A program made the position numbers and the translations under genes. DNA of 50,110 nt from a virus: IMG/VR virus record IMGVR_UViG_3300030329_004171, positions 1-50,110 of that record. One strand, written 5' to 3'. Positions 3,779 to 48,324 of the stretch are shown here, piece by piece. How positions within the stretch are numbered: the first letter of the stretch is position 1; each line of letters opens with the position of its first letter. The notes under the pieces were generated by a model that saw only the letters and a list, made by a program, of their open reading frames with translations, searched no databases and was not told the DNA's origin.

Positions 3779-4018
3779 ATGAGTAAGCAGAAATTATCAC
3801 CCACAGCTAGAAGGGCTAAAGCAGCTAGAGATTTGGCATTCGCTAAAACACATGCTAGAAGACGTAAGAAAGCTGAGAACCAAAGATTACGTAGAGCAGC
3901 AAAGAAAGCTGGGAAGAATATAAAAGGTAAAGACTACGACCATAAAGATAGACGATTTAAAACTGTCAAAGCAAACCGCGGTAATGACGGTAAAGGTACA
4001 AAAAAAGAAAAAAATTAA
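3779..4018 (+). CDS. Very basic small protein (79 aa), probably nucleic-acid-binding
   Basis: About 40 percent of residues are Lys or Arg, with an Ala/Lys/Arg-rich helix (SPTARRAKAARDLAFAKTHA) and a Gly/Lys-rich tail. The composition suggests binding to DNA or RNA, as in small histone-like or capsid-packaged proteins. It is first in the rightward block, before the small structural-type genes. Similar Arg/Lys-rich first genes are familiar to me from marine Bacteroidetes phages, but no function is established. The ATG follows an A/T-rich leader. Confidence 0.65.
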   Translation: MSKQKLSPTARRAKAARDLAFAKTHARRRKKAENQRLRRAAKKAGKNIKGKDYDHKDRRFKTVKANRGNDGKGTKKEKN

Positions 4019-4039
4019 TAATTATTAAAAACAAAAGTT

Positions 4040-11752: not shown

Positions 11753-11972
11753 TGAATTAATTAAAGTAGCAAAAGAACCTATAGTTGATTCAGATGACGA
11801 TATATCAGCAGATAGATTAAAAAATGCCGCGGCCACTAAAAAACTAGCTATATTTGACGCGTTTGAAATACTTAACAGAATCCAAGAAGAAGAAAACTTG
11901 CTTGAGGGAAAAGCACCTGAAGAGAGAAAGGAAAAAGTCTTTAAAGGATTCGCTGAAGGTAGATCTAAGTAA
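11697..11972 (+). CDS. Candidate terminase small subunit (91 aa)
   Basis: The reading frame is open from further upstream, but the best start is the ATG at 11697, giving MNIKETKRNIIQAGQRAVDE. Upstream codons overlap the previous gene and read as non-biological hydrophobic sequence. The product is helical and acidic with a charged C-terminus (EERKEKVFKGFAEGRSK). It sits directly before the large terminase, with the stop overlapping its ATG by one base. Position and size fit the DNA-recognition subunit of the packaging motor. No sequence motif proves it. Confidence 0.55.
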   Translation: MNIKETKRNIIQAGQRAVDELIKVAKEPIVDSDDDISADRLKNAAATKKLAIFDAFEILNRIQEEENLLEGKAPEERKEKVFKGFAEGRSK

Positions 11973-25000: not shown

Positions 25001-28000
25001 CATTTTGACGTCAATGGTGCACTTGCCGCCGGTACGTCTATTGATGAGCTTTATGATATAACCAAACCTTTAACAGTTAGATTTTATGATAGCATACAAA
25101 CAAGTAAAACGTATAAAGTCACCCGTGTTGCAGCAATCAACCCTTCACTCGCGGGTGGTGACAGCCAAGGTAATGATTTTAGAATATCAGTAGAATTTCC
25201 ATTTGGAGATGACGTGATATTTATGGAGGACACGTCTGGTGCAACTACCACAATAAAAGATGATGTCGCTTGTGAAATTAGTTTAGATGAATATAGAGAA
25301 AGAGCAGAGTATGAAGGAAGATTTTTTGTAAAAGTACTTAAGGATTCTAACTTGTTAACTCATGTTGTTGATTTTGATCTAAGTTCTAATCTATATACTT
25401 CAGTTAGTCAATCACTTTATTATTTTGATACTTTAAATATAGACGCTGGTGATAATACTAAATGGTTAAGAACAGCTTGGCAAAGTGGATTTTTACATCA
25501 ATCGGATGAAGGAAACTGGTGGGATTATTTAGATTGTTATAGAAGATGGTCAAGATACTTTGGAGATGTAGAAAATGCCAGCCCTTTAGGATGGGCACCT
25601 AGCACAGTGAATAACGTCGCAGATTATGAAGGTCCTAAGTGGTTTATTGATGCGTTACCTTTTGAGGCTTACCAACCATCCGGAACTGATTATGATGGCG
25701 GAACAGATGGGCCTAATGAACCGCACATGGCGTGGAGCCATCCTTTAGTTGGTAGTATGGCGCCTTCTACAGTAAATATGATTGATATACCAACTGATAA
25801 TATTTTTGGTGATCCTGTTAATGGGAATGTTTCTGCTACAGAAATAAAACAAAACGACGAGTACTTAAAACATTTTGGAGGGGTTGATCATACCTTCACT
25901 TTACCACCAGGTTCGCATGGCGCTATTACTATATCATATATTGGTATACCAAATGAAATGGCTTCAGTAAAAATTAATAGTTTTGGAGAAGCAAACGCAA
26001 TGCGGCATGGTTTAACTGATCATAACGATAATCCAGGATGGAATCAAGCGTTTATGGTCGGAGATATGGCTAACGCGTTCACTAGTTCAGAAAACGATAT
26101 AGTAACTAAGTTGTTAACACCAGGTCAAAGATTTAAGTTTACTAGTGACCCAAATGGGACTATATATACTAAAACAAGTCATAAACAATATCAAATATAT
26201 AATTTTGTTAACGCGGATAATGGTAAAGTAGGAAGATGGGAGCATGGAGGATTAGAAGCTATAGAGGATTGGAGTGGTGATGCTTGGCAATGGGATAGTG
26301 GAATCCCTGGAGTAATTAATGAAGTGGGATTTGGATCACAGGGTATTGTCTTAAACGATCCTGCTGATCAAATTATAAATCCTTTATTCGCTCAAACTAG
26401 ATGGACTTGCGTGTTGTTTTTAGACAAACCAGTAGGTTGGCATCCAAAAAATGATGGAGGCGCAGATCATGATACACCCACAACGATTGAGTTTTTAGAT
26501 ATAGAACCAAACGAAAATAAAGAAAAAATATTAAATCCTGTAATATGGGAAACAGAACCAAAACCTAGTACTGATATAGATTTATATTACGAAGCTAGTA
26601 ACGTTATACCTATAACTATGGATTTAGACTGGAACGAACAAGTTTTGCCACTTGGATCTACTGTTGAATGTATTTATGGTGGTGATTTAGACGCGGCATT
26701 TGATACTAACTCTAGTTCTAATACATTTGGTCAAGAACTTGATGTTATTTTAACCAATATACATGGTGGTAGAATAATGTTAGCTAACGCTAACGCATCA
26801 AATAATTTAACTCTTAATGACAATGCTTTATTAAAGTTTTGGAATGGAAACGAGTATATAACAGTTGCTGTTGAAGGTAGTCAAACAGGACAATTTCAAG
26901 GTATAGCTATTATAAATATAGATCCTAATTTTTATAATGGAAGTAGAACGTTAAATTGGTATAACTGTTTTTCTTTTGGAAATGGAGTTGAGTCAAATAG
27001 AGTTAGAGACGATTTTAATCAAGTTATTATAGATAATGGACCTAGAGCTTCTACTACAAGTATACTTCCTTATGAGGCTGAAAATAGAAAATACGGTATA
27101 ATATACTCTGGCTTATATAATTCTCAAAGTGGTGTTAACGATTTAAATCAATTTAGATCTGCAGAAAAAATTACAAAAGATATAAATCCTACTTATGGAA
27201 GTATACAAAAACTATTCACAAGAAGAACTAGTTTAGTTACTTTTTGTGAAGATAGAGTTGTAAGAATAACATCAGATAAAGATAAGTTATATAATGTTAA
27301 GTTTGTAGATCATATGGGTAATACACCTGAAACAGTTTTAGGTGACGCACAACCTTTTATTGGTGATTTTGGTATAGGAAAAAATCCAGAATCATTTGCT
27401 TCAGAGTCTTATAGAGCTTATTTTACAGATAAGAAAAGAGGGTCAGTTTTAAGATTATCAAAAGATGGTTTAACACCTATATCAGATTCAGGTATGAACG
27501 ATTGGTTTAATGATAATTTAAAATTAGGAAATACTATTCTTGGTAGTTATGACGATGATAAGTTAGAATATAATTTAACTATAAAAACTGATAATCCAGA
27601 AACAACAAAAACTATTAGTTATTCTGAGGCTGTGAGTGGCTGGGTTAGTTTTAAATCATTTATACCAGAAAATGGAATAAGTTTAGGTGGTGATTATTAT
27701 ACTTTTGATAAAGGTCAGCTTTATAAACATCATATGCCACTGCAGTACAATGGTGTTAATTGGGTTGATGTTGATGAAGAAAACGCTAAAAACTACAACG
27801 TTTTTTATGGGGTTGATTCTTATGAGTCTTATGTTGAACCTATTTTCAATGGTAATCCTAGCGTTATTAAATCTTATAAAACACTATCATATGAAGGTAG
27901 TCAATCTAAGATTGATAAATTTACAATAGAAAGCGGTTTTCAAGATTCAGCTGGTAATACTTTTGACATCGGAGACGGTGAGTTTTATAATTTACAAGAC

Positions 28001-31000
28001 AATGTTAAAGGTTGGTATGTTCAAAACATCGTCACAGACCAACAAGAGGGAAGTGTAAAAGAATTTATAGAAAAAGAAGGAAAGTGGTTTAATTATATAA
28101 TAGGGAAACCTAAAAACGAAAACATTATAGATCCAGAAGAGTTTTCTTTTCAAGGTATTGGTATAGGTATTAGTTCTGTAGTTGGAGATGTAGTTGGGTG
28201 TATGGATGCAAACGCATTTAACTTTAATCCGATGGCTAATGTAGCTTGCGCGGCTTGTTGTATAGATACCGTGCCTGGATGTATGGATAGTACTGCTAGT
28301 AATTATAACTCAGTGGCTAATGTAGATGACGGATCTTGTATACATACTGGCTGTACAGACCCTACCATGTTCAATTATAATCCTAGCGCAACAGTAGATG
28401 ATGGATCTTGTGTGGCATTTATATATGGATGCACAGATCCTACTATGTCTAATTATGATCCTACCGCAAACACACTAGATGGCTCTTGTGTTCCATTTAT
28501 TTATGGATGTATTGATGCTACCGCTCTTAATTATAACTCAACTGCTAATACTGACGATGGAAGCTGCGTATATTGTGTCTATGGATGTACTGATAGTAAT
28601 TACGCAGAGTATAATCCACTTGCTACTTGTGATAATGGTACTTGCGCTACATTAATATCAACGGTTACTGGATGTATGGACCAAACGGCAATTGATTATG
28701 ACCCAATATTTACTCATGATTGTAGTGGTGTTTTAGGTGGAACTGATTATAGTTGTTGTACTTATTGTGTATATGGATGTACCGATCCATTAGCTACTAA
28801 TTACGATCCTTCTGCCACTTGCGACGATGGAACTTGTATAACGTCTATCCCTGGTTGTACTGACCCAACGGCTACAAATTACGATCCAAATGCAAATGTA
28901 GATGATGGAAGTTGTGTTATTTGTTCTAATTTAGATATGACTGCTGTAATAACAGTTATAAATGACACAAACTCTAGCCCTTCTTCAGGTAATGGTCAAA
29001 TAAACTTCGTGCCTAATCAAACAAACCAAGATAATCCTTGGACACTGTCTTTGAATCCTGCTCATGGTGGTTTTGGTAATTGGGATGATTACACTTGGGT
29101 TAATGCTAATTCAGCAAACTCTCCTTATACAATTACAGCGACTACTGCAAACGGATGTACAGAAACATATTCTGTTAACGTCGGTTTAGATGCTGACGGG
29201 TGTATGGATCCAGCTGCAAATAACTTTAGCGCTATAGCAACTAATGATGATGGTTCATGTACGTACTCTGGTTGTACAGATCCATTATCTAACAATGGAG
29301 TAACTACATTTACACACCCTGTAGATGGTCTTACTTACTTAGCAACTACTGATGATGGTAGTTGTGTATATACTTCTGGTTGTACAGATCCAGCCGCTGC
29401 AAACTATGATCCATTAGCTAATCAAGACGATGGTAGTTGTTTATATGATGGTTGTACAGATCCAACAGCAAGCAACTACGATCCATTAGCTAATCAAGAC
29501 GATGGTAGCTGTGAATATTGGGGATGTACGGATCCTAATAATAGTGCATATAGTTCTAGTTTCACCCACAATTGCGATGGAACAGCTATAGGTACTACTC
29601 TCCCTGGTTGGGATGATTGTTGTGCCTCTTGTTTTGACTCGTTTGGAAATCCAATACCTAATTATAGTTTAAATACTGGCGCTAGTCAATTAAGTACAAC
29701 ATATAGTTTGTTAAATGGTAAATTACATGTTAACCCTGGTTCAAATAATAGTTTTTCTTGGACAGGTGTAGACTCTCAATCAGGTACGGTTAATATCGCA
29801 AATCCAACTAGCCACGTGATTGACAATCTTCCTCCTGGAGATTATACAGTTGTTGTAACTAATATAAATGGATGTGTTGATAGTTCAACTTGGACGATAA
29901 CAGAAGATACATACGGGTGTACGGATTCTACAGCTACAAATTATGATCCTAATGCGAATGTAGACGATGGGTCTTGTATTTATCCTGTTAATGGATGTAC
30001 TGATCCTAATGCTCAAAACTACGATCCTTTAGCAACTGTAGATGATGGAAGTTGTATAAGTTGCGATGGTGTAAGCTTAAGTGGTCTTGCTTACGTATCA
30101 CAACACGCTTCTATTTACGCATCTTCAAACGTAAACATGAACAATGTAATAGGTTCTGGTTTTACACCAGGTGGTTGTAATGGTGTTGTTGGTGCGCATT
30201 GTGACCCTGAAGTAACCGTGCCTTATTTAAATAATGGAATAGCTGGTCAAGGCTACGTAGTTAAAGCTAGCGTACCTGCTAATCACCCATCCCATCCAAA
30301 TCATCCAGGTCAAGATTTAACACCTCCTTCTGCAGCTTGGTTATGGAGTGCTTGGCAAAGTGGTTCTAGTGTAATGCCTCAAACATTTGGTTTATCACCT
30401 GCGTTCGCAAGCAATGGAACCGGAGCGAGTTATGAAGAAAATAATTTCTTCCAAAACGATCTTATTGTTAATTTAAAACTCAACAATACTCAATCACCTA
30501 ATTTTATACCTGCTTGTGACAGTAGAAATCTTAGCGTAATGGTAGATGTTTATGGGTGTATGGACAATACTAGCGTCGATGAGAATGATAAAGATTACAT
30601 AACGCTTGGTCAGTCAACTGGTGCTTGGAATTATGATTCAGCAGTTAATAACCCTCAAAACTCTGCGTCTGACACAACTAACGTTTGCTTAAAATGTAGC
30701 GATCATACAATGTCTTTCTCTAGTACACCAGTTCTTGGTAACGGTATCAACGCAGATAATACTTGTACCGCAGGTGCGGGTAGTGGTGACGGGGCGTATA
30801 ATGTTACGTTTGACTTTGGCGCAGATTTCAATTACTTTAATCAATCAGTTATACATCTAGAAATAACAGGTGCATCAGGTAATGCAGCAACATCTGGTTA
30901 TAATCAAGACCACTGGTATAACGACCCAATAGCAGGACCTAATAGCGTTTCGCAAACAATGAATTATTCTGATACAGCTCTTGATTGTGGTATTTATGAG

Positions 31001-31099
31001 TTCACTTGGACTTGGAGTAAAGAATACACAGATTTAACTGGTAACACTAATACTAGAACTTGTCAGAAAACATTTACAATAGAAATTCCAGCAGGATAA
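22019..31099 (+). CDS. Giant tail hub / stabilisation protein fused to adhesin repeats (3026 aa)
   Basis: Residues 1-2050 form the hub. It begins FLKGKMNKDLDERLVPNGEY, has INIIDDMLFWTDNHSEPKKI near 440 and a FPRFATRYKYEDGEYSVFSP segment near 640. Near 1730-1900 is a propeller-like end (QKLFTRRTSLVTFCEDRVV, KNPESFASESYRAYFTDKKR). This is the P22 gp10 / crAss stabilisation type. Residues 2060-2890 carry about 17 copies of a 24-residue unit GCTDPTA-NYDP-AN-DDGSC. Two SprB-like immunoglobulin modules are interleaved (nt about 28930-29190 and 29640-29920). The array probably contacts the host surface. Confidence 0.85.
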   Translation: MPEMKHNFLKGKMNKDLDERLVPNGEYRDALNIDVSTSEDSNVGTVQNILGNKLINTYPVTASPATFLPSNAVCVGSISDEANDSLYWFATGDKFQELHYLNGEPQILQTVPFYEKDMILKYKDGDITPVFVDINTVFISNESGNTHNSLAVSSIDNIGKGTTVTGYTDNGTGFVEEFTGIVEDFGEIAASNVGWTPNYDTVQVLNPSANPNNPFSAQIKAIPIPGPTGSFGPSSPPTLLIDAPFPGQTLGIGNVVTGSYINVGTEVVNITYPSSYSGQPGTFNSVIEVELNQSAIAVGPHPWNIQVNFTNPGSTVPQQVLNNVLTIPGAQWGNTPTSLGMQVGMFIVGSGIPQNASIHSIDETTSSTESYITIVFPDGSPAPVTNTSGGVLNVYGSGLLEKVILTKSFQQGNTAVSYPQVDYLVFKSNKVLNFHKDRLITGINIIDDMLFWTDNHSEPKKINIERSIRGTDKDGLHHTHLVNDARDIGIIGEAVPVEEQHITVIRKGPTNAPLLDIETERPKEGVTTITDAFLVPSAGIPLLPEQTTNITINPINNAVFEPGDIVLFQSASAISPLPDNWKVKAELESLISSVSNEWSVKILSIKSTIAAGAQQFDVMQDLAHSERLFKLKFPRFATRYKYEDGEYSVFSPFSEVAFVPSEFRYRPHEGFNVGMENTATKITLKNLIPRNIPDDVVQVDILYKESDASNIYLVDSIKPKDPIPSNKNRNYWNETWYGVSGSGITKGKYEITSEMIHATLPENQLLRPWDNVPTKALAQEITANRLVYGNYWQNYDLTREDGTDFKPEFNVSLKTYSSTLNDKKSVKTQREYQVGVSYFDDYGRETPILTDQSGTLKIKKETSNKVNRLAVQLKGQPPAFAKAYKFYVKESSTEYYNLAMDRYYDDESGFEDNMWLSFYSNDRSKLEEGDWIELKKGSFEEHIKEDAKYKVLAIENEAPEFVKRKRIPLNTEVHNATSNDFFIDDNNLPTQNKLHFDVNGALAAGTSIDELYDITKPLTVRFYDSIQTSKTYKVTRVAAINPSLAGGDSQGNDFRISVEFPFGDDVIFMEDTSGATTTIKDDVACEISLDEYRERAEYEGRFFVKVLKDSNLLTHVVDFDLSSNLYTSVSQSLYYFDTLNIDAGDNTKWLRTAWQSGFLHQSDEGNWWDYLDCYRRWSRYFGDVENASPLGWAPSTVNNVADYEGPKWFIDALPFEAYQPSGTDYDGGTDGPNEPHMAWSHPLVGSMAPSTVNMIDIPTDNIFGDPVNGNVSATEIKQNDEYLKHFGGVDHTFTLPPGSHGAITISYIGIPNEMASVKINSFGEANAMRHGLTDHNDNPGWNQAFMVGDMANAFTSSENDIVTKLLTPGQRFKFTSDPNGTIYTKTSHKQYQIYNFVNADNGKVGRWEHGGLEAIEDWSGDAWQWDSGIPGVINEVGFGSQGIVLNDPADQIINPLFAQTRWTCVLFLDKPVGWHPKNDGGADHDTPTTIEFLDIEPNENKEKILNPVIWETEPKPSTDIDLYYEASNVIPITMDLDWNEQVLPLGSTVECIYGGDLDAAFDTNSSSNTFGQELDVILTNIHGGRIMLANANASNNLTLNDNALLKFWNGNEYITVAVEGSQTGQFQGIAIINIDPNFYNGSRTLNWYNCFSFGNGVESNRVRDDFNQVIIDNGPRASTTSILPYEAENRKYGIIYSGLYNSQSGVNDLNQFRSAEKITKDINPTYGSIQKLFTRRTSLVTFCEDRVVRITSDKDKLYNVKFVDHMGNTPETVLGDAQPFIGDFGIGKNPESFASESYRAYFTDKKRGSVLRLSKDGLTPISDSGMNDWFNDNLKLGNTILGSYDDDKLEYNLTIKTDNPETTKTISYSEAVSGWVSFKSFIPENGISLGGDYYTFDKGQLYKHHMPLQYNGVNWVDVDEENAKNYNVFYGVDSYESYVEPIFNGNPSVIKSYKTLSYEGSQSKIDKFTIESGFQDSAGNTFDIGDGEFYNLQDNVKGWYVQNIVTDQQEGSVKEFIEKEGKWFNYIIGKPKNENIIDPEEFSFQGIGIGISSVVGDVVGCMDANAFNFNPMANVACAACCIDTVPGCMDSTASNYNSVANVDDGSCIHTGCTDPTMFNYNPSATVDDGSCVAFIYGCTDPTMSNYDPTANTLDGSCVPFIYGCIDATALNYNSTANTDDGSCVYCVYGCTDSNYAEYNPLATCDNGTCATLISTVTGCMDQTAIDYDPIFTHDCSGVLGGTDYSCCTYCVYGCTDPLATNYDPSATCDDGTCITSIPGCTDPTATNYDPNANVDDGSCVICSNLDMTAVITVINDTNSSPSSGNGQINFVPNQTNQDNPWTLSLNPAHGGFGNWDDYTWVNANSANSPYTITATTANGCTETYSVNVGLDADGCMDPAANNFSAIATNDDGSCTYSGCTDPLSNNGVTTFTHPVDGLTYLATTDDGSCVYTSGCTDPAAANYDPLANQDDGSCLYDGCTDPTASNYDPLANQDDGSCEYWGCTDPNNSAYSSSFTHNCDGTAIGTTLPGWDDCCASCFDSFGNPIPNYSLNTGASQLSTTYSLLNGKLHVNPGSNNSFSWTGVDSQSGTVNIANPTSHVIDNLPPGDYTVVVTNINGCVDSSTWTITEDTYGCTDSTATNYDPNANVDDGSCIYPVNGCTDPNAQNYDPLATVDDGSCISCDGVSLSGLAYVSQHASIYASSNVNMNNVIGSGFTPGGCNGVVGAHCDPEVTVPYLNNGIAGQGYVVKASVPANHPSHPNHPGQDLTPPSAAWLWSAWQSGSSVMPQTFGLSPAFASNGTGASYEENNFFQNDLIVNLKLNNTQSPNFIPACDSRNLSVMVDVYGCMDNTSVDENDKDYITLGQSTGAWNYDSAVNNPQNSASDTTNVCLKCSDHTMSFSSTPVLGNGINADNTCTAGAGSGDGAYNVTFDFGADFNYFNQSVIHLEITGASGNAATSGYNQDHWYNDPIAGPNSVSQTMNYSDTALDCGIYEFTWTWSKEYTDLTGNTNTRTCQKTFTIEIPAG
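28196..30690 (+). repeat. GCTDP...DDGSC repeat array within the tail hub gene
   Basis: About 17 coding units, typically 72 bp, start at 28196. Spacing varies where longer inserts occur. The units at 29378-29449 and 29450-29521 are exactly in register and nearly identical, a sign of recent tandem duplication. Each unit has a Cys pair and Asp-rich loops that could bind calcium. Confidence 0.85.
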
Positions 31100-35388: not shown

Positions 35389-38300
35389 ATGATTAAAAAC
35401 TTAAAGTCTCCATTAAAACAAGAGTGGGATTGGACAGGCATAGGTGATGAAGATAAAAAAATAGCTCAAAATCTCATCAACAATGGCATGATACCAATTG
35501 AAGTGCCTGATCATGCTTGGGTAGAACATGGTAGCGCTTATTGGGAAGATGAGAAAACTGGTAGAATTTTATCAGCGTTTTATGATATGCATGATCTTTC
35601 TCCTACTGGAGCTTGGAGTCCTGAGTCAAATTTTATTGCCTTAGATGCTTTTGTTTACGGTAGAACTATGGAAGAACAAGAAACGTGGGTTAAGCAACAA
35701 GAGCAATTAAAGAAAGAAGAAGAAGAGTTAGCGATTAAATTAGAAGAAGAAAAAAAGAAAAAAGAAGAAGAAAAAATACTTAAAGACTTAGAAGAAACTG
35801 AAGATATACTAAACCAAATTAGAACTGGTGAAGCGTCAAATGGTGCTTATGAAATGGGGCCGTTAGAAAGACAATTGTGGAGTGATATGTTTAGTGGAAT
35901 ACAGGTTTCAGAGAAAGATTTTGATGATGCTAGACAAGCAGATAGAGATACGTACCACGAATGGAAAAATCCAAAAAAGTCAAATGAAAGTAAATCATTA
36001 GATGACCAAGTAACCTATATTCCTCATCTACCTGATGTAACAGTAGAGATTTCTGAAGAGCTTATTGAAAGAGGTGATGCGGTATTTGTAGGTCCCTTAG
36101 CTGATAAAGATGGTATTGATAATGATCTTGATGGGGAGATAGATGAACCAGGGGAGACTTTAATCATGACGTACGAGGAACTTTATGCTGACTTTGATCC
36201 ATATGAAGATATAAATATAAACTCTGAAAACGCAGGGCACGTATACACGTATTTAAGGGGTTTAAAAAACGAAGAAATAAAAAAGAAAACAAAAGAGGAT
36301 CTTAAAACTCAAGGCGCTATTAATCTTGGCTTTAATTCAACACCAGAGGATCATTATAGAGCTGATATGAATCCAGATATACCAACAGTTATTTTATCAA
36401 GAGATGATTTTGTTATTTACGATGGAGATGGTGCGTTAGATTACGAAACAACTTTAGAAGAAGCCCAATCATCACCAGATATATACGAAATTAAATTAAA
36501 AGACTGGAAATATAACGAAAATGGCCTACTTGTTCCCGTTGATATGAGCTCTTTTCAAAATAGATTATCAGAAATAGAAAGTTCAGATAAAGATAAGGAT
36601 GAAAAAGATAAAGATATTGAAAGGTTGATAAAAGATTATGATGAATTTATTAGGTTAGAGCCTTATACAACTGGAGAATTAAATGAAAAAGTTAAAAAAG
36701 ATAAAGAAAGATATAATGATTATATTGATGGTAAAATAGATTCTGAAATAATCAAAGAAGAAGGATTAGATAATAAATTTTATAGTCCTAAACTTGGGTT
36801 TATGACTGCAGAAGAGTTTGTTTTTAGACTTGAAACCTCAGGATATCCAAAAAATAAAAATGGAAGAGAACGTTTTATTAATGAGTATTTTATAAAAACT
36901 CCAAAAGAAATAAAAGAAGCAAAAATACAACGAGCTAGTGAAATTATAGAAAAAGAATCTTATGAAACGCTGTTGGATATCACGCAGAAGAAGTCTACTC
37001 CTGTTGGAGAAATATATCGAGTATTAACTGATCCAAACGGATACTTTAGAAAATATAATTTAGCTGTAAATGCGGTGGATGATTCTGGTTATGACGCTGT
37101 AAGAATATATATTCCCACGATTAAATACATGATGCTTGACGCTGATATATATGGAGGTGAGAGCTTTTATGAAGGCTATAGTCATCTTGATAATTATAAT
37201 GAAGACAGAGGTATTCTTGAAATATTTAAGAACGAGGGTGGACAAATTGATTTTTCAGAACAACAATTAAGGCATTTATTCGCTCTATTAGACAAGCAAA
37301 TAAAAGATCCAAGAGGTAATATACCTTTATTAAACTCTTTGTTTCATGATGAAGTTGGAGAAAAGATTGATTATGATTATAACCCCGCTAAAGAGAGAAA
37401 AACAACTTTAGATAACAGTCTTAGAATACTTTTTGCCCAACAGAATAAAATGAGGGATATGATAACAGGTGGTTACTGGACAGAGGAGGATTGGAAAGAT
37501 TGGGTCAAAACCGATTCAAGGCAAGTTGCAATAAGAAAAGAGATTCAAGAGGAATTAGATAATGATTTTAATTATTATTTTAAAGACGCTGGGTTACAAC
37601 TTCATTTTACAGATAATAAATTAAAACTTAGTAGAACTGACGGGATGTTTATGTATGATGCTAAAGGTACGAAACTACCATATGGATCAAGCCATATTTA
37701 TTTTGAACATACCATGGAGAGTGAGTCTAAAGCAGTAGGTGGTTTATCAACTGATGTTATAAGTTATTTAGCTCATTTTATAACTAAAAAAGAAATGCAG
37801 ACTTTTGAGACTAAAGCTGTAAAATACCAAAACGGTAAATTAATTGATCCATTAAAAGAACGTGCAGAGGAGATAGAAAAAGAAATATCTATAAATGATT
37901 ATACTGAGAAACAGGTAATGCAGCGGTTTTTTAAGAATAGGGAGATTACTCTTGATTTTTCTACTGCGGAAACAAAATATTCTAAATATGACGTTCCTAT
38001 TACGGGTGGAACTTTTGAACTTCCAGAAATAGAGATCAACACAGGATTTTTAAATATTTTTAAAGACAAGGATGATCCAAGTAAAAGCGAGTTACCTAGC
38101 GTAACAACTCAAAAAACAAAAGCGGGCGTATCTATAATAGTACCTGGAGTTAGCACTGTCGATGGTATGAAGTTTTTAAGTGGTAATTTTACTAATAGTG
38201 ATTGGGTTCCAAAAGAGATACAAGATATAGGTAATAATGCCGCTCAGTATACTCTTCAATATTTCTCTGATGCTTTAATGGAGGAAGGTATTAATCCATT

Positions 38301-41300
38301 TGCAGTGGTTGGAAGTAAAGAAGATTTAATTGATTACCTTAAGACCAACATGTTTAAAGGTAGAGGTGGAGCAAGTTTTACAGGTAGAGGAGCGTTGACA
38401 GATGAGCAAGGTGATTTAGCTTGGACGTGGTATAAAGCTATATATAATGAGTATTTAAACGATGCTTATGGTATAAGAGAAACCATGTATACTGAAGATT
38501 TTGTTAAAAAACTTCAAACTTATGCTCAATCTCAGATTGAAAATAAAGATTATCTTTTAACAACTGATAACGGAGATCTGTACATTGATAGAGATGGTAA
38601 CGAATTAATACTCAGTGATGATGAAATACAAGCAGATATAAATAAAAGATTAGATATAAACACCGATTTACTTGACCGTGCTTCAGAGACAACAATGGTC
38701 GCTTTACAAGATTGCTTTAAAAACGGTTTTCACGTTGATATTAGTTTTACTGAAGATGGTGAGATAATTTTTAACGGTATAATTAAAATTGACCCTGAAA
38801 AATACGATGAATATAATAAACTCAAGCAAGACCAAAAGTTAGGAGAATATGACTTAGTTGAAGAAGGGATAGGTACTTTAGTTGAGACAGATGAGGCTTT
38901 TGCAGAAGCACCATTAGCACAACAATTGTGGGAGGGTTTAAAATTAGGGAAAAAACCAGCAGTCGAATATGGCTTTGAAGTTGGTGGTGTGCCGATAACT
39001 ACAGATGTTTTTACTGTTATAGATGGAAAGGCTTATACAGAATCAGAGTGGAGTAAACTCATTGTTGAACATGATAAATGGAAGGCGGAAAAAAATGCTT
39101 TAGCTGGGGTTACAGATAAAGAAGTATTAAAAAAGAAATTAAAAGTTCTTATTCCTGAAATGCAAAAACTTCAAAACATGATATATAGAGGGGGTAAAAA
39201 CAGAGATGAGATTCAAAAATGGTTTGACGAGAATCCTAATGCAAAAATACAAAAAGAAAAAGAAAGTGATGAACAGTACCAAGCGTTTGTAGAAAATATA
39301 CAAAGCGGGTCACAAATGAGTAGATTAGAACTTTTAAATCTTCCAGAAGATCACGCGAAAACCGTGATGAATTTATATCATGCTATAGATATTTACAATG
39401 ACACTAGAAATGAGGTAAAATCAGATCGTCAAAAAATGATTAATGGAGAGGTAAAAAGAAAAGAGAAAGACTTTCTTTTAGCAATAGCCCAAGGAGAAAC
39501 GGGAATGGAGACTAGTTATTGGGAGAACTGGCGAAGAAGATCTGGAAGAGGTTTTGATAAGTTATACATGGGCCCAGCAGCACTATTTGGTCATGAAGGG
39601 GCTCAAGATGCGTTGTTAAAATATAATAAATCTGCTCAATACGAAAAATCTTACGGGTGGGGAGAAGGAGACAATTGGGGTGCATTTGGTATGGTTTGGG
39701 CAGATCAAGGCGCTAATATGCTTATGTTTGTAAGCACAATGGGAGTTGGTACAAGTGTTTTTGGACTTAGTAAAGCTGGGGCTATGATTACTCCATCAGT
39801 TCTTGTTGGAACTGGATCTGGTGGTAGTAAATATGTTGAATTAACTAGCTTACAAGAAGACGCTGCAAATGCCCAGTTGCAATTAGACGCTTTAAAACTT
39901 AATTATGAAAAAGGCAATGTAACTCCCAAGAATTTTAGAAATCAAAAAATGAGACTAAATGAAGTTATAGATAGAGGTGACATGTCTCAAACTCAAAAAT
40001 GGTTTTCTGTTATATCCACAGGTTTTATTGAGATGGGTTTTACATACGGATATGGTAGACTTGGTATTGGTGATATTGGAATTGCAAATAAGATAACAAA
40101 AGCCTTTTCTAAAAATACAAAAGGTTATAGAGGTTTATCAAGTTATAATCCTTGGGTGGGTGGTAAAGAAGCACTAAAAGGCATTGGAATACAAACCGGT
40201 GGTGAAATGCTAGAAGAAGGTAGTATATACGGTGCAACAGAGTTTGTTGATGGTATTATTTTTCAAAGAGATGGTGATTATAGTCAAATGTCTAAAGTTT
40301 TATGGGATGCGGCCGCTATGAGTAGTAGTGCTGGATCAGTATCAATAACTACCAATACGATGTTAAACCACAACTTAAAGATGGAGGCGCGTCGTAAAAT
40401 GGAAGAAGATATACAAACTTTAAAAGCGTTAGAAAGCAATATAGCAGATATAGATGAGCAAATACTTAATATACAGCTTGTAGCAAAAGATACAGATATT
40501 GAAATAGATAATAATGAACTTGCGCGTTTAAAAAAAGAAAGAGATATTGCAAACCAAGATCTTAGAGATGGAATGCAAGAATTAGTAATAAATTGGCAAG
40601 ATATGCATGTTCGTTTATTGGGAATGAGTGAGGGTGATCAAAAACAAATATATGAAAATAGTAGACTTCTAAGTAATTATCTTTTAGAAGCTGGAATACT
40701 ACAAGAGAACGCTAGTAACGAGAACCATGTCAATGCTAAACTAGAAATATATAGAAACAAATTAAATAAAAAGAAAGCTGGTTCTGGAGATGCTTGGATA
40801 GAAGGTTATCGTAAATTATATAATTCTAACGAAGATTTAAAAGATGCTTGGACACCAGAAATTGCTACTGAATCTATATATGGTCCTGATTATAAAGAAA
40901 ATGGATCAAGAAAAGAAATAAAAGATATAATACAAAAAGACAAATCTAAAGAAGGAAAAGAAAGAAAAGAAGCCTATAACAAAGCTGATGAAATCGGTAA
41001 GTTACGTATAGAACTAGATGTTATACAAAGGCTTCATTTAGACAACGCTACTTTAGAAATGAAACAAGATGAGAAAGTTACAACAACGGTAGACAACGCT
41101 GTTTGGAGCCAAAAAACATACGAAATAAACGGTGTAAAATACAATTCTAAAAAAGAATTTATAGATGAAATAAAAAGATTAAATGAAGAAGGAGAAGGAG
41201 GTGAGATTAAAATTGACGTTCAAAATGATCATCAAGCAAGTTTACTAGCTGATAACATTCTTCATAAAAACAACGAAACAACTTTTGTATCAGATGGAGA

Positions 41301-44300
41301 GGTTCAAACAAAACCAGATGAAGACGTTAAAGTTGATAAAGACGTTAAAGTTGATGAAGATGTTAAAAAAGAAAAAATTAAACCAAACGTAACAATAACA
41401 AACACCACAAACACTCAAACTAAACAAGAATGGGAACAACAAAATAAAGGTAAAAAAGGAGTTGTTGAAGATAGAAAACAAAGACTTAAAAAAGAGCAGG
41501 AGATATATGATTACTTAGCTAAAACTCATTATGCGGGTGGAGTTAGAGATTTACGAACATTTGAAAACGATAAATCAACAACAAAAGATATAGCTAATAT
41601 AGTTGAAGACGCTACAAATAGAAAATTAGAATTTGAAGAGACTGGTAGCTTTGATGGTCTTATAGATAAAGTTCAAGAACTACGTAGAGAATATAAAATA
41701 ACCGCTCAAGAAGCTATAAAGATGGTAAGACATCTGATTAATAATAGAAAAACAATAGAATCTAATCATAATGGTTTTCTTTTAGATAATAAATTTTTTG
41801 TTATAAACGAGAAACAAGCTAAGCAAAGAATAAAAGAAGATTTAGATGTTACTGGTGAAAACAAGTTTTTACAAGGAGCCGCTTGGTTACATGAAACTGG
41901 TCATTACTTAGATAATATAACTAAATCTGTAGAAGAGATTTCACAAAAAGGAATTTACTTAAATGAGTTTTTATTAAATGAAAAAAGTGAACGTGCTCAA
42001 GTACTAAATGAAAATGTTGAGAATGATCTCAGAAGAATGTCTGATGGAGATGGTACTTATTTAGGTAATAATGAAACAATAAAAGATATAATTGAAGAAA
42101 GAAAAACTGCGACTGGAGATAGGTTAGATAGAATAGACAAGATTTTAGATGAATACATTAGAGAAGTAACAACTAAGATGAAACATGAAAACTACGCTAA
42201 ACTACGTAATGATGTTATAAAGAGAGGTAGAGGTACGTTTGCTAGATTTACAAATAAAGATTATAAGGTTAAAAACGCTAAAGAAGCAGCTTATGAAGTA
42301 GTAAGCTTTATAGAGGATTTCAAAAAAGGAAGATTAACAGAAGCTTATAAAATTCAAATAGAAGCTGCCAAAGGAAGAAAGGATTTAGCTGGAGACGTTA
42401 GAGGTGAATTACAAGAGTCAACTACGGTAAAAGGAAAAACAAAACAAGAAGTAATAAATAATTTAGTTAGAGATAAAGAAGGGTCTGTTATTACTAAGAA
42501 GCAATACGATGACATGCTCAATAAAGGAGCTGATAAGGTAAGAAGAAAAGTTGGTGGGGAATGGACTGTTAAAACAAAACCTCATCCAGCTAACTTACTA
42601 ACTAATGATCCTAGTAAACCTGGATTTGACGAACTTAACGGTTCTATTAGAAACTTAGGCACTAGAATGGAAGGAGATAGAGTTTCTTTTGTTAAAGGAG
42701 AATCTGACTCAATGAGCGACTTCATTCAAGCTGTTAAAGACGAATTAACTACAGCTATTATTAATTATAACCCAGAAACAAAATATCAAGGCGTAGCACA
42801 AGGTGATTTATCAGGTTGGTTAGCTCAACATATCATATATAAAAAACCTGGTGTTATAGATAAGTTCAAAAAACAACAAGAAGCACGTGCCGCCGCCAAA
42901 CAAGGTGGTGAGTACAAAGGAGACGGTACACTTGACGTAGGAACAGTGGAAGGAACTGTTGTTTTTGCTAGAAAGTTAGGGTTTACAGAAGATGTTATTG
43001 GTCAAGACGAGAATGGAAACGATATAACTAGGAATGCTTTTGATTTAATAGTTGAAAAGAAGTTCAACGAGGTAATAGCACAAGACCCTAAGACTTATAA
43101 AGATACTAAGAGTTTAATAAAAGATAACGACGCTGTATTAGTCGAGATCTTAAACATGGTAGCAAAAGAATTTGGTGTAAAACCTAGTAAACTAATAAAG
43201 GATTCTGCTTTAACTACTGACGAGAGAACATCGATACAATTAAAAATCAATTCTATTGGAGCTAGGTCGATGTTAAATATGATGCCTGAGGCGTTTAATT
43301 CTTTAGGTGATGCCAACGGTGTGCAACCAGTGTTTTTAGATGGTGGTAAAGGAAAGGCTATAAATTCTGAAACTGGAGAAACGAATCTAATATACACCGC
43401 ACAAGAAGGAAGGGTAAAGACGACGAAACAGAGAATTGGTAATAAGATAGTATACGGCACATCGAAAAAGAAAGGGGGAGGAAAGGGATTAAAGATACAA
43501 AAGAAAAACTTTGTTGAAAATATAAATGAAGCAGATTATCTAGACATGCTCGGTATTACTCCTGTAGGAGTGAAGAGAAGATTTAGAACAGAAGATAGAG
43601 TTGTAGACGGGCCTTTGAGAGGATCTGTAATGCAGGTTGCTATTATTATAGCAAATCAATCTGTAACTAAAATAGCTGAAGAGAAAGGTTTAATAGGATT
43701 ACAATCTATGAAAGATGGTAAAGGAGATCTTATGCTTAGTTCTATTATAGATGGGTCTAAACAAGATTTAATTCAACATGTATATTGGGATGGTAGAAAT
43801 AAATTCCATTCTCAATTCGACAACGTTATATTAGACCCTACAAATGAAACAAATTTAAAAAATCAAATTACAAAAGCTTTTAATGAAACTTGGCCTTATG
43901 GAGAGGTTGTCAACGAAAATGGAAAAGACGCTTGGATAGGTAGTGATGGAGTTAATTATAGAAATAAGTTAATAAACTGGTACTCTAAAACATTACGTGA
44001 GAACTATCTTAAATACACAAAAGAAGATGTTGTAATGGATGGGAAAGATGTAAATAGTTTCCGTGATTTTTTAATGGCTGAAGATTCTAAAAGAGACGAT
44101 GGTTTTGATAGTATATCTAAAATACTTGAAACAGATCCTATAACTAAGTTATTTAGAGAGCGTTTAGAAATAAATAAAAAATACCAAAAAACCAACGCTG
44201 ATAGCTATGTAACAAAACTACAAGAAGAAGGTTTAACTGAAGAGCAAGCTAGAGAAAAGGCTTTAGGAGAATACATTAGAAATAAAAGTTTCTTAGAAAA

Positions 44301-47300
44301 CGGTACAATTGATCCTGCTAGAGGAATGACTTTTGGAGATCAAAAAGTTTTAAGGTTAAGAAATGAAGAATCACAATCAAAATACGGTAAGAATTTTAAA
44401 GAGTTAAATAAAGAACAGAAAAAGATTATAGAAAAAGCTATTCCGGGAAGACATAATGAAGTTTACACTCAAGAATTTTTAACACATATATATCCTGGGT
44501 TAATAAGTTATAAAAAAGGACCTAAAGTTTTAGATAAAAATGGGAAAGAAGTTAAAGATAAAGTAAGTTACATTATAGAGACTAAAAAAGAAGGTAAAAC
44601 TATACAAAAGACTATAGAAGTAACAAAAGCTTGGCCTCAAGCTACAACTAAAGATATGTTAACCACTACAAACGAAGATGGATCTATTGATTCACCTATG
44701 AGTATAGAAGAAGCTAATGCTAGAAGAAAAGATTCTAACGAGGCAATGAAGTTTTACGATGACATAACAGCTATAGCCGCTGAAAATTCTAAAGCGATGA
44801 AAAATGGTAAAGAACATTTCGCTATGCATATGGCAGCTATGAACGCTAATATGAAAACACCTTTAAGAAGAGGTGCTGTATTTACGTACGCTGCTTTGGA
44901 TGCGCCAGCAACCGCGTTAAAAGATGTTAACGGTAAGAAAAACTTTGAATTTGAACATGGGTTACCAGCTAAAGTAGTTAATGCTTTAATGATAGGTAGA
45001 CACTGGTTTAACAATGGTTTAAAATTAGAAGATATACAAAAAGCTTATGAAGTTGGTGTGTTACATAGAGACTTTAATGATAATGTAGGTAGATTATTTA
45101 AGGAGAGAATGCATTTTAATTATCAAATTGGAGATGGCGCTTTAAAAAGATGGTTAAGTAGATGGACAGCAACAGGGGCAAGTCATGCTCTTTACAATGT
45201 ATTTACTGGAAAGGTTGAAGGCAGGCAACAAGCTGAAAACCACAAAAGAACAAAAGAAAGTATAAAAGAAAAAACTATTGATAAGGCTATACAAAACTCT
45301 AGATTAATAAATGATAATGCGCAATCAAGAGGTATGTCTGCTTTTGATTTTGATGAGACTTTAATTATAGAAGGAGAAAATTTTATAATTGCTAAAAAAG
45401 GTAAAGAAACAATAAAGATATCATCAGAACAATGGCCAATTCAAGGACCAGAATTAGCTGAACAAGGGTATGAATTTGACTTTACAGATTTTGTAAATGT
45501 AAGAGGTGGAGTTGAAGGACCTTTAATGCAAAAACTTAGAAATAGAATCAATAAATTTGGTATAGAAAACACTTACATATTAACAGCTAGACCAACAGAA
45601 AGCGAAACAGCTATAAGAGGTTGGTTAAAAACAAAGGGTATAGATATGCCTTTAAAAAATATAACAGGCTTAGGAAATAGCACTGGAGAAGCTAAAGCGC
45701 TATGGATGGCTCAAAAATATGCTGAAGGCTACAACGACATGTATTTTGTTGACGACGCACTACCTAATGTTACTGCTGTTAAAAACATAATGGATCAATT
45801 AGATATAAAAGGATCTTCTGTTCAAGCAAAAATACAACTTAGTAGTGACTTAAATAATACATTTAATGATATATTAGAAGAAACAACAGGTATGAAATCT
45901 GAGAAAAGATTTTCAGATGCTCAAGCTAAATTAAGAGGAAAAGGATTTAAATTTAGAGGATTAGTACCACCGTCTGCACAAGATTTTGCTGGTCTTTTAT
46001 ATAACTTTATAGGTAAAGGTAAAAAAGGAGAACAACAATTTGAAACATTAAAGAAAGCTTTAATTGATCCTTTCGCTAGAGGTTATGATGAGTTAAACAC
46101 CGCGAGACAAAAAACAGCTGAAGACTATAGAAGTTTATTAAAAGAATTTCCTAATGTAAAAAAGATGTTAAATAAAAAAGCAGGTGACACAGGTTTCACT
46201 GTAGATCAAGCTATTAGAGTTTATTTATGGAATAAAGCTGGATTTGATGTCCCTGGGTTATCTAAAAGAGATTTAAACAATTTAAACTCTTATATTGCAA
46301 ATGATGTAGATTTACAGACTTTTGCAGATGCATTAGGTATTGTTTCTAAAAAAACAGAAGGTTATTCAAAACCTGGAGAGTATTGGTTAACAGAAAACAT
46401 AGCATCTGATTTAATGAGTGACGGTGCTATTGGTGACGCTAGAGCTAATTTCTTAGCTGAATGGCAACAAAATGTAGATCAAATATTTTCTAAAGAAAAC
46501 TTAAATAAAATTGAAGTTTTATATGGACGTAAATTTAGAGAAGCTTTAGAAGATATGTTGTACCGTATGAAAACTGGATCTAATAGACCTGTTGGTAGCA
46601 ATAGACTAACAAATATGTATATGAACTGGGTAAACAACTCAGTTGGTGCAATTATGTTCTTTAATATACGTTCTGCAGTTTTACAAACTATATCTGCAAC
46701 AAATTATATAAACTGGGGCGATAACAATGTGTTAAAAGCAGGTTTAGCTTTTGCTAATCAAAAACAATATTGGAAAGATTTTGTTATGATATTTAATTCA
46801 GACATGTTAAAACAAAGACGTGCTGGTTTAAAATATAATATCAACGAAGCTGAATTAGCTGCCGCTGTAGCAGGTAGTGATAACAAAGTAAAAGCAGCTT
46901 TAGCATGGTTACTTAAAAAAGGTTTTACACCTACACAAATAGCAGATAGTTTCGCTATTGCTAGTGGTGGAGCTAGTTTTTATAGAAATAGAGTTAAAAC
47001 TTATTTAAAACAAGGTTTAGATCAAAAAGCAGCAGAAGAAAAAGCTTGGTTAGATTTTCAAGAAACAACTGAAGTTGCACAGCAATCAGCAAGACCAGAT
47101 CTAATATCACAACAACAAGCTAATCCTCTTGGTAGATTAATATTAGCGTTTCAAAACACACCTATGCAGTATGGTCGTATAATGAATAAAGCGTTTAGAG
47201 ATTTAGCAAACGGAAGAGGAGACGCAAAAACACATGTTTCTAAAATAATTTATTATGGAGCCTTACAGGGAATAATATTTACCGCGTTGCAATCTGCTTT

Positions 47301-48324
47301 ATTTGCTGTTCTTGGAAGCGATGATGATGATGAAAAGGAAAAAATGTTAGATTCAAAAACAGATAGAATGGCAAACTCTATGGTAGACTCTTGGTTATCA
47401 GTTTTTGGATATGGTGGTAAAGCTATTAGTACAGTAAAAAACACTATAATGGAATTTAACAAGCAGAGAGCTAAAGATTTAGATGATAATTTTATGACCC
47501 GATCAGACCACGCTTATACTTTATTACAAGCTTTAAGCTTTTCACCCCCAATTGGTTCTAAAGTACGTAAAATATATCAATCTACTCAAACAGAAAAATT
47601 TAATAGAGATATAATAAGTGAAAGAGGATTTGCTATTGACAATCCTATTTGGAATGCTATTGGGAATACTATTGAAGGTGTTACAAATATTCCATTAGGT
47701 AGATTATCAAACAAATTAAACAACCTAAGCAACGCTATGGACTCAAGACACGAAACATGGCAACGAGTAGCATTGCTTATGGGTTGGAATTTATGGGATT
47801 TAGGTGTTAAAGATCCAGATATAGTTGCTTTGGGTGAAGATATAAAAGAAAGAAAGAAACAAGAGAAAAAAATAGAGAAAGAAAAAAAGAAATTTAAAGA
47901 TACACAAGAGAAATTAAAAGAGAAATATCCTGATAAAACAGAAGAAGAGGTTGATAAGGCTATTATAATAGAAGAAAAAACAAAAGAAGTTTTTAATTTA
48001 AATAAACGAGAACAAGTTAAAATTTTAGAAGAATATGATTTAAATCCTAAAGATTATCCTAAGGAAAAAGATAGAGTAGATAAAATAATGGAATTATATA
48101 ATAAAAATCCTAATAAAATAGACTCTTCATTAACAAATATAAAGAATTATGTTCCCTCTAAACAAGAAAAAAGATCTATCGATTTATTTAAAATGAATAA
48201 AAAAGATCAAGTAAACTTATTAATGGAATTAGGCTTATCTAGTAAAAAAATTAAAGAATTAAAATACGAAGAAGATAGAGTCAATAAAATAATACAACTT
48301 GAAAATAAGAAAAAAGGTAAATAA
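35389..48324 (+). CDS. Giant polyvalent internal virion protein (4311 aa) with zincin and HAD motifs
   Basis: A single 13-kb frame. Start MIKNLKSPLKQEWDWTG; Lys/Glu coiled coil at 102-142; a DKDGIDNDLDGEIDEPGE calcium-loop motif near 240; a hydrophobic stretch near 1444-1476. A zincin site HETGH lies at 2168-2172. HAD phosphatase motifs follow: FDFDETL near 3321, YILTARPTES near 3396, TGEAKALW (Lys) and MYFVDDALPN near 3450. The C-terminal part (NNSVGAIMFFNIRSAVLQTI, SQQQANPLGRLILAFQNTPM, near 3740-3950) is the conserved end of large internal virion proteins. It closes with two similar helical repeats (4202-4240, 4266-4309). It is probably ejected with the DNA. Confidence 0.8.
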   Translation: MIKNLKSPLKQEWDWTGIGDEDKKIAQNLINNGMIPIEVPDHAWVEHGSAYWEDEKTGRILSAFYDMHDLSPTGAWSPESNFIALDAFVYGRTMEEQETWVKQQEQLKKEEEELAIKLEEEKKKKEEEKILKDLEETEDILNQIRTGEASNGAYEMGPLERQLWSDMFSGIQVSEKDFDDARQADRDTYHEWKNPKKSNESKSLDDQVTYIPHLPDVTVEISEELIERGDAVFVGPLADKDGIDNDLDGEIDEPGETLIMTYEELYADFDPYEDININSENAGHVYTYLRGLKNEEIKKKTKEDLKTQGAINLGFNSTPEDHYRADMNPDIPTVILSRDDFVIYDGDGALDYETTLEEAQSSPDIYEIKLKDWKYNENGLLVPVDMSSFQNRLSEIESSDKDKDEKDKDIERLIKDYDEFIRLEPYTTGELNEKVKKDKERYNDYIDGKIDSEIIKEEGLDNKFYSPKLGFMTAEEFVFRLETSGYPKNKNGRERFINEYFIKTPKEIKEAKIQRASEIIEKESYETLLDITQKKSTPVGEIYRVLTDPNGYFRKYNLAVNAVDDSGYDAVRIYIPTIKYMMLDADIYGGESFYEGYSHLDNYNEDRGILEIFKNEGGQIDFSEQQLRHLFALLDKQIKDPRGNIPLLNSLFHDEVGEKIDYDYNPAKERKTTLDNSLRILFAQQNKMRDMITGGYWTEEDWKDWVKTDSRQVAIRKEIQEELDNDFNYYFKDAGLQLHFTDNKLKLSRTDGMFMYDAKGTKLPYGSSHIYFEHTMESESKAVGGLSTDVISYLAHFITKKEMQTFETKAVKYQNGKLIDPLKERAEEIEKEISINDYTEKQVMQRFFKNREITLDFSTAETKYSKYDVPITGGTFELPEIEINTGFLNIFKDKDDPSKSELPSVTTQKTKAGVSIIVPGVSTVDGMKFLSGNFTNSDWVPKEIQDIGNNAAQYTLQYFSDALMEEGINPFAVVGSKEDLIDYLKTNMFKGRGGASFTGRGALTDEQGDLAWTWYKAIYNEYLNDAYGIRETMYTEDFVKKLQTYAQSQIENKDYLLTTDNGDLYIDRDGNELILSDDEIQADINKRLDINTDLLDRASETTMVALQDCFKNGFHVDISFTEDGEIIFNGIIKIDPEKYDEYNKLKQDQKLGEYDLVEEGIGTLVETDEAFAEAPLAQQLWEGLKLGKKPAVEYGFEVGGVPITTDVFTVIDGKAYTESEWSKLIVEHDKWKAEKNALAGVTDKEVLKKKLKVLIPEMQKLQNMIYRGGKNRDEIQKWFDENPNAKIQKEKESDEQYQAFVENIQSGSQMSRLELLNLPEDHAKTVMNLYHAIDIYNDTRNEVKSDRQKMINGEVKRKEKDFLLAIAQGETGMETSYWENWRRRSGRGFDKLYMGPAALFGHEGAQDALLKYNKSAQYEKSYGWGEGDNWGAFGMVWADQGANMLMFVSTMGVGTSVFGLSKAGAMITPSVLVGTGSGGSKYVELTSLQEDAANAQLQLDALKLNYEKGNVTPKNFRNQKMRLNEVIDRGDMSQTQKWFSVISTGFIEMGFTYGYGRLGIGDIGIANKITKAFSKNTKGYRGLSSYNPWVGGKEALKGIGIQTGGEMLEEGSIYGATEFVDGIIFQRDGDYSQMSKVLWDAAAMSSSAGSVSITTNTMLNHNLKMEARRKMEEDIQTLKALESNIADIDEQILNIQLVAKDTDIEIDNNELARLKKERDIANQDLRDGMQELVINWQDMHVRLLGMSEGDQKQIYENSRLLSNYLLEAGILQENASNENHVNAKLEIYRNKLNKKKAGSGDAWIEGYRKLYNSNEDLKDAWTPEIATESIYGPDYKENGSRKEIKDIIQKDKSKEGKERKEAYNKADEIGKLRIELDVIQRLHLDNATLEMKQDEKVTTTVDNAVWSQKTYEINGVKYNSKKEFIDEIKRLNEEGEGGEIKIDVQNDHQASLLADNILHKNNETTFVSDGEVQTKPDEDVKVDKDVKVDEDVKKEKIKPNVTITNTTNTQTKQEWEQQNKGKKGVVEDRKQRLKKEQEIYDYLAKTHYAGGVRDLRTFENDKSTTKDIANIVEDATNRKLEFEETGSFDGLIDKVQELRREYKITAQEAIKMVRHLINNRKTIESNHNGFLLDNKFFVINEKQAKQRIKEDLDVTGENKFLQGAAWLHETGHYLDNITKSVEEISQKGIYLNEFLLNEKSERAQVLNENVENDLRRMSDGDGTYLGNNETIKDIIEERKTATGDRLDRIDKILDEYIREVTTKMKHENYAKLRNDVIKRGRGTFARFTNKDYKVKNAKEAAYEVVSFIEDFKKGRLTEAYKIQIEAAKGRKDLAGDVRGELQESTTVKGKTKQEVINNLVRDKEGSVITKKQYDDMLNKGADKVRRKVGGEWTVKTKPHPANLLTNDPSKPGFDELNGSIRNLGTRMEGDRVSFVKGESDSMSDFIQAVKDELTTAIINYNPETKYQGVAQGDLSGWLAQHIIYKKPGVIDKFKKQQEARAAAKQGGEYKGDGTLDVGTVEGTVVFARKLGFTEDVIGQDENGNDITRNAFDLIVEKKFNEVIAQDPKTYKDTKSLIKDNDAVLVEILNMVAKEFGVKPSKLIKDSALTTDERTSIQLKINSIGARSMLNMMPEAFNSLGDANGVQPVFLDGGKGKAINSETGETNLIYTAQEGRVKTTKQRIGNKIVYGTSKKKGGGKGLKIQKKNFVENINEADYLDMLGITPVGVKRRFRTEDRVVDGPLRGSVMQVAIIIANQSVTKIAEEKGLIGLQSMKDGKGDLMLSSIIDGSKQDLIQHVYWDGRNKFHSQFDNVILDPTNETNLKNQITKAFNETWPYGEVVNENGKDAWIGSDGVNYRNKLINWYSKTLRENYLKYTKEDVVMDGKDVNSFRDFLMAEDSKRDDGFDSISKILETDPITKLFRERLEINKKYQKTNADSYVTKLQEEGLTEEQAREKALGEYIRNKSFLENGTIDPARGMTFGDQKVLRLRNEESQSKYGKNFKELNKEQKKIIEKAIPGRHNEVYTQEFLTHIYPGLISYKKGPKVLDKNGKEVKDKVSYIIETKKEGKTIQKTIEVTKAWPQATTKDMLTTTNEDGSIDSPMSIEEANARRKDSNEAMKFYDDITAIAAENSKAMKNGKEHFAMHMAAMNANMKTPLRRGAVFTYAALDAPATALKDVNGKKNFEFEHGLPAKVVNALMIGRHWFNNGLKLEDIQKAYEVGVLHRDFNDNVGRLFKERMHFNYQIGDGALKRWLSRWTATGASHALYNVFTGKVEGRQQAENHKRTKESIKEKTIDKAIQNSRLINDNAQSRGMSAFDFDETLIIEGENFIIAKKGKETIKISSEQWPIQGPELAEQGYEFDFTDFVNVRGGVEGPLMQKLRNRINKFGIENTYILTARPTESETAIRGWLKTKGIDMPLKNITGLGNSTGEAKALWMAQKYAEGYNDMYFVDDALPNVTAVKNIMDQLDIKGSSVQAKIQLSSDLNNTFNDILEETTGMKSEKRFSDAQAKLRGKGFKFRGLVPPSAQDFAGLLYNFIGKGKKGEQQFETLKKALIDPFARGYDELNTARQKTAEDYRSLLKEFPNVKKMLNKKAGDTGFTVDQAIRVYLWNKAGFDVPGLSKRDLNNLNSYIANDVDLQTFADALGIVSKKTEGYSKPGEYWLTENIASDLMSDGAIGDARANFLAEWQQNVDQIFSKENLNKIEVLYGRKFREALEDMLYRMKTGSNRPVGSNRLTNMYMNWVNNSVGAIMFFNIRSAVLQTISATNYINWGDNNVLKAGLAFANQKQYWKDFVMIFNSDMLKQRRAGLKYNINEAELAAAVAGSDNKVKAALAWLLKKGFTPTQIADSFAIASGGASFYRNRVKTYLKQGLDQKAAEEKAWLDFQETTEVAQQSARPDLISQQQANPLGRLILAFQNTPMQYGRIMNKAFRDLANGRGDAKTHVSKIIYYGALQGIIFTALQSALFAVLGSDDDDEKEKMLDSKTDRMANSMVDSWLSVFGYGGKAISTVKNTIMEFNKQRAKDLDDNFMTRSDHAYTLLQALSFSPPIGSKVRKIYQSTQTEKFNRDIISERGFAIDNPIWNAIGNTIEGVTNIPLGRLSNKLNNLSNAMDSRHETWQRVALLMGWNLWDLGVKDPDIVALGEDIKERKKQEKKIEKEKKKFKDTQEKLKEKYPDKTEEEVDKAIIIEEKTKEVFNLNKREQVKILEEYDLNPKDYPKEKDRVDKIMELYNKNPNKIDSSLTNIKNYVPSKQEKRSIDLFKMNKKDQVNLLMELGLSSKKIKELKYEEDRVNKIIQLENKKKGK

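Follow-up and report, generated by a model that had tools for sequence, protein, structure and literature searches.

A HAD phosphatase domain in a giant, probably virion-borne protein of an uncultured marine phage: a candidate nucleic-acid end-healing enzyme

HAD phosphatases, PNKPs and polyvalent proteins are each already known. The PNKPs that contain a HAD domain (T4 Pnkp, Capnocytophaga Pnkp1 and mammalian PNKP) carry kinase and HAD in one polypeptide, as do relatives of the phage protein described here. However, the kinase lies beside the HAD in the PNKPs but inside the HAD cap in these relatives, and here the unit is embedded in a protein of thousands of residues, of which the copy in the window (the whole 50,110-nucleotide stretch of virus DNA analysed, IMG/VR record IMGVR_UViG_3300030329_004171) has no kinase. 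Polyvalent proteins (Iyer et al. 2017, PMC5512222) are likewise giant, multidomain and encoded among virion genes, and the protein resembles them in having a slot for interchangeable enzyme domains and what may be a zinc peptidase motif. Neither a HAD phosphatase nor a polynucleotide kinase is mentioned in the main text of the Iyer et al. survey.

Three further systems come close. The CARF-HAD effectors named Chp (PMC12715507) also place a HAD phosphatase in phage-host conflict in Bacteroidota, but these are host defence proteins, switched by CARF, that act on nucleotides. Tenacibaculum phage Gundel_1 (Pachyviridae) belongs to a related terminase lineage and its gp74 has a distantly related C-terminal module; gp74 differs, however, in lacking a HAD, in its size (2482 aa) and in being encoded upstream of the terminase gene instead of at the end of the block. 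The uncultured 462-kb phage LR756500 has a stand-alone HAD (profile E 7.5e-9) that shares the motifs and resembles the window domain in its cap, but it is the product of a separate 187-aa gene and is 22% identical to the window domain.

The giant protein and its HAD domain

The giant gene is the last large ORF of a block of terminase, portal and structural genes, which it closes:

11972-14188: terminase (by PHROG), upstream of the giant gene in the block
14191-16614: portal (by PHROG), upstream of the giant gene, together with virion structural proteins also assigned by PHROG
35389-48324, plus strand: ORF of the giant protein, 4311 aa (ORF listing and translation)
41890-41904, plus strand: HETGH, a zinc-peptidase-like motif of the giant protein (sequence)

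Residues 1-3300 are almost unshared among relatives, while the HAD and the C-terminal module are shared; the HAD opens this block, residues ~3300-4130, which is found in nearly all relatives. The HETGH region is common to only about 5 of the 79 relatives compared. Pfam gave no match to it, so the peptidase identity of the motif is unconfirmed. As in polyvalent proteins, several unrelated domains that differ between relatives are thus found in one large polypeptide.

A second giant ORF of the window (22019-31099, 3026 aa) matches virion protein PHROG14478 at its N-terminus; its positional counterparts in relatives that are cultured or named reach only about half this length (1470 and 1551 aa). 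The phage encodes a GroEL (5507-7072, 521 aa, PF00118 E 6e-50), which is annotated also in the related record MW202828. The protein encoded at 9691-10437 has a concanavalin A-like lectin domain (Laminin_G_3 E 3e-22) and may function in host recognition.

The features of the HAD domain are as follows:

45331-45834, plus strand: HAD phosphatase domain, residues ~3315-3482 (motifs, conservation, AlphaFold2 model)
45346-45363, plus strand: motif I, DFDETL, from residue 3320, with nucleophile Asp3320 and acid/base Asp3322
45397-45408, plus strand: tip of the cap hairpin, the approximate kinase insertion point in eight complete relatives (relatives and nested model)
45580-45594, plus strand: motif II, LTARP, from residue 3398, with Thr3399 followed by an invariant Ala-Arg
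45694-45696, plus strand: motif III, Lys3436 in EAKALW (sequence and conservation)
45745-45762, plus strand: motif IV, FVDDAL, from residue 3453, with Asp3455 and Asp3456

A preliminary description of this DNA had reported all four HAD motifs, correctly ordered and spaced, in the 4311-aa protein, and their order and spacing are as it gave them. All fall within residues 3320-3456 and have the residues of a HAD: DxDx[T/V] with two Asp in motif I, Thr in motif II, Lys in motif III and an acidic pair in motif IV. When the giant protein is shuffled, 41 of 2000 versions (2%) still match a loose regular expression covering all four motifs; the motifs by themselves are therefore suggestive, and it is conservation that settles the domain. 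The AlphaFold2 model (mean pLDDT 73.8, pTM 0.66, best core blocks 83-92) runs in the order motif I strand, small cap (hairpin 32-37/40-45 and helix 49-58), motif II strand (95-99), Lys helix and Asp-pair strand; motifs I, II and IV each fall at the end of a strand. This element order is that of a Rossmann-like core in which the insert follows motif I, the core that the structure prediction proposed in the preliminary description was to look for.

Conservation and the exchangeable slot

A search of viral contigs with the HAD domain found 242 relatives, and 80 sequences, window included, were aligned. The six catalytic residues are invariant in 80 of 80, a set that was found via the HAD itself and partly selected by the motif I peptide, so that a selection effect is possible. 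Because this peptide was among the queries, the residue count was repeated on a HAD-independent sample retrieved with two queries free of HAD sequence, the C-terminal module and a DNA pattern. The HAD is present in 157 of the 199 members of this sample, absent in 14, and 28 are too short to decide; absence was scored only where at least 480 upstream residues were available, giving 171 decidable proteins. Among the sequences covered at each position, which are 36-74% identical to the window (median 46%), both Asp of motif I are found in 140/140, Thr and Arg of motif II in 154/154, Lys of motif III in 156/156 and Asp-Asp of motif IV in 156/156. Non-catalytic HAD positions vary freely.

Invariance of the catalytic residues down to 36% identity is the mark of selection for catalysis, and the window HAD is thus very probably an active enzyme. 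The active phosphohydrolase proposed in the preliminary description thereby gains strong sequence-based support, while its delivery with the DNA, the other half of that proposal, draws on gene position and distant homology.

The HAD directly precedes a constant C-terminal module of ~650 aa:

45835-47778, plus strand: constant C-terminal module, residues ~3483-4130, common to ~62-77 of the 79 HAD-bearing relatives compared
47257-47319, plus strand: single predicted hydrophobic helix, possibly membrane-spanning, residues 3957-3977 (Kyte-Doolittle)

Profile A2 spans residues 3735-3965 of the module, which no Pfam model matches. The hydrophobic helix is the sole segment above 1.5 over 19 residues in a Kyte-Doolittle scan. 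Depending on the relative, the slot ahead of the module holds the HAD, a kinase, both or neither; where the HAD is missing, the slot is either empty or filled by other sequence. The absence of the HAD from 14 of the 171 decidable proteins makes it an exchangeable module and no obligate structural part. The domain is kept in close relatives, whose lack of it would have told against the preliminary description, but these 14 more distant relatives, which share the C-terminal module, do without it.

Other occupants have also been seen. In two relatives (L200 and L240) an 'IEVK' motif, PD-(D/E)XK nuclease-like, is found where the HAD usually sits; no Pfam family was found for this or the other slot occupants, and their identities are unconfirmed. 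Three (L111, L229 and L290) have an extra domain of ~430 aa with a conserved SNPWC motif between the HAD and the C-terminal module; this domain, present in some nested-kinase relatives, is without a Pfam family.

The nested kinase and the candidate substrates

Nine relatives have a P-loop kinase of ~190 aa fused to the HAD. Eight of them are complete in this region, and in these the kinase follows motif I, with one strand of the cap hairpin on either side; the nested-kinase relatives keep all HAD motifs. As far as could be tested, this nesting of a kinase in a HAD cap is undescribed. Three other relatives (L178, L228 and L276) have the kinase without the HAD in the slot, and 148 of the 157 HAD-bearing proteins of the HAD-independent sample have no kinase. 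The window protein is one without a kinase, and no AAA_33 kinase was found in the incomplete 50-kb record. Kinase and phosphatase are thus combined in one polypeptide, as in a PNKP, in nine relatives but not in the window protein, and for this reason the window domain is not filed as a PNKP. In a HAD-core tree (135 columns, poorly resolved) the kinase insertion needs three changes, at least two of them forced, hence no simple single gain. One nested kinase (L280:1928-3082) has GSGKG as its Walker A instead of GSGKS/T and may be altered or inactive.

The nested unit of one relative (L290:6499-7653) was modelled with pLDDT 82.8; hairpin strands 21-26 and 227-232 flank the kinase at 37-225. PNKPs rank top in its Foldseek search, Capnocytophaga Pnkp1 first at 7.6e-8 (PMC4411300). 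Clostridium thermocellum Pnk (9.1e-8, target TM 0.72), T4 Pnkp (3.6e-7) and mammalian PNKP (2.5e-6) are also matched, and a zeta toxin stands behind the Capnocytophaga, Clostridium and T4 enzymes at 2.1e-6, target TM 0.51. PDB chains with both a kinase and a HAD are mostly PNKPs, so the top rank partly reflects composition. The kinase matches Pfam AAA_33 and Zeta_toxin, both significantly (Zeta_toxin in 9/9 members, best 4.8e-14), and PHROG505 polynucleotide kinase at 3.9e-11, and zeta and PezT are among its PDB matches. The Walker A Lys and a later Asp are invariant in the nine kinases, residues that cannot separate PNK from zeta.

The HAD domain alone is poorly covered by any library model searched. 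Searched as a single sequence against Pfam, PHROG and the PDB, the window domain had no match over noise, and PDB sequence-profile searches returned no HAD, only chance matches to thioredoxin-like proteins. 'Ribonucleotide reductase' matches in Pfam and NCBIfam were weak and were discounted. Foldseek of the HAD model against the PDB was also weak (none below 1e-3), led by the Legionella HAD proteins Ceg4/Lem4 and PH1952. In a viral structure library, the matches are led by giant proteins that have the same domain and come from uncultured viruses, and PNKP phosphatases reach only E 3e-3 against the HAD alone. Among phage families, PHROG415 'polynucleotide kinase' fits the HAD alone best, being matched by 25/32 and 8/13 members (best E 5.9e-5 and 1.7e-7). 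NCBIfam HAD-IA variant 3 is matched by 25/32 members (best 9e-6), the window member being under the curated cut-off.

We infer catalysis, substrate, virion presence and ejection, and our best reading, a tentative one, takes the HAD as a nucleic-acid 3'-end phosphatase, the PNKP-like healing half, in a polyvalent protein that would be ejected. The nested kinase of the relatives, the PNKP structure matches and PHROG415 lend real support to nucleic-acid ends as the putative substrate. Of the candidates named in the preliminary description (nucleotides, nucleic-acid ends and signalling nucleotides), it is nucleic-acid ends that gain this support.

The best surviving alternative, though unlikely, makes the HAD a nucleotidase or an NTP/dNTP phosphatase that early in infection would alter the host nucleotide pool or destroy a nucleotide used in defence signalling. 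HADs often act on nucleotides, the CRISPR-linked Chp HADs of Bacteroidales and Prevotella dephosphorylate dATP, ATP and IMP (PMC12715507), and other nucleotide-metabolism domains occur in polyvalent proteins (PMC5512222). However, the family match is poor (PHROG8630 'nucleotidase', 1/32 members at 0.033) and the cap-nested kinase of the relatives is left unexplained. The second alternative is a pair acting on a small molecule or precursor sugar: a zeta-toxin-like kinase would phosphorylate, for example, UDP-GlcNAc, and the HAD would reverse or limit this reaction, or remove another sugar or protein phosphate. The Zeta_toxin matches of all nine kinases and the zeta and PezT structures argue for it, as do the zeta-like kinases on record in polyvalent proteins (PMC5512222), the Legionella HAD effector proteins that are the nearest, if weak, solved HAD structures, and the annotation 'UDP-N-acetylglucosamine kinase' on one HAD relative. 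Polynucleotide kinases nevertheless outrank zeta structurally (Foldseek), and an antidote-only role would be odd since most HAD-bearing relatives have no kinase; this pair is less likely again than the nucleotidase. A HAD fold that has lost catalysis and is a structural or binding part of an ejection protein is very improbable: the domain forms part of a giant protein encoded in the virion gene block and is dispensable in the cultured relatives examined, but its catalytic residues stay invariant where other positions are free, and the 14 relatives without a HAD show that it is not structurally required.

The HAD fills the slot before the constant C-terminal module, in a polyvalent protein of giant size that is probably virion-borne. 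If it is an end phosphatase, the Asp nucleophile would attack the terminal phosphate, with the second Asp as acid/base, and the resulting hydroxyl end would be ligatable; DNA or RNA broken on entry or by host nucleases could then be resealed. In the nested relatives, the 5'-kinase-like P-loop domain would supply the 5' phosphate, making a two-activity end-healing unit. Sealing would fall to a ligase from another gene of these phages or to a host ligase, and the target may be phage DNA, host RNA that defence nucleases have cut, or other. Of the 12 records above 60 kb, 10 encode an ATP-dependent ligase (DNA_ligase_A_M); none was found in the window's incomplete 50-kb record. Phage ATP-dependent ligases are common for replication, which counts against the ligase as evidence of end healing.

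Phage lineage, delivery and significance

The source is probably an uncultured marine phage with a Bacteroidota host. One terminase family is common to all of the 49 records tested, and its cultured members infect Flavobacterium, Cellulophaga, Tenacibaculum and Maribacter; the HAD is absent from the cultured relatives examined. Cellulophaga phi14:2, considered as a cultured relative, was rejected as a crAss-like phage of another lineage. A pattern scan of 84,980 species genomes found the HAD in two only (L087 and L088), MAG contigs labelled Sphingobacteriales and Maricaulis that are probably phage contigs binned along. The C-terminal module is distantly homologous to Gundel_1 gp74, which is annotated as structural (profile E 3.2e-10). 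Since the giant gene closes the structural block and its module resembles gp74, the giant protein is probably virion-borne, as judged from gene position and this homology.

A further step is to see here an undescribed class of injected end-healing enzyme, a kinase in a HAD cap within an ejection protein of a large uncultured phage clade, with the window as its phosphatase-only form. This is possible but somewhat doubtful.

The HAD family is plentiful in marine viral metagenomes and nearly invisible in cultured phages and domain libraries. The kinase-in-HAD-cap arrangement joins two activities already familiar from RNA and DNA repair in a fusion topology that is new. Phages are most exposed just after their DNA enters, and bringing enzymes in along with the genome is one way to meet this. 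If the end-healing reading is true, ends broken at entry would be repairable ahead of any phage gene expression, and the conserved phosphatase described here, sometimes with a cap kinase, would allow a direct test of whether a virion protein repairs ends at once.
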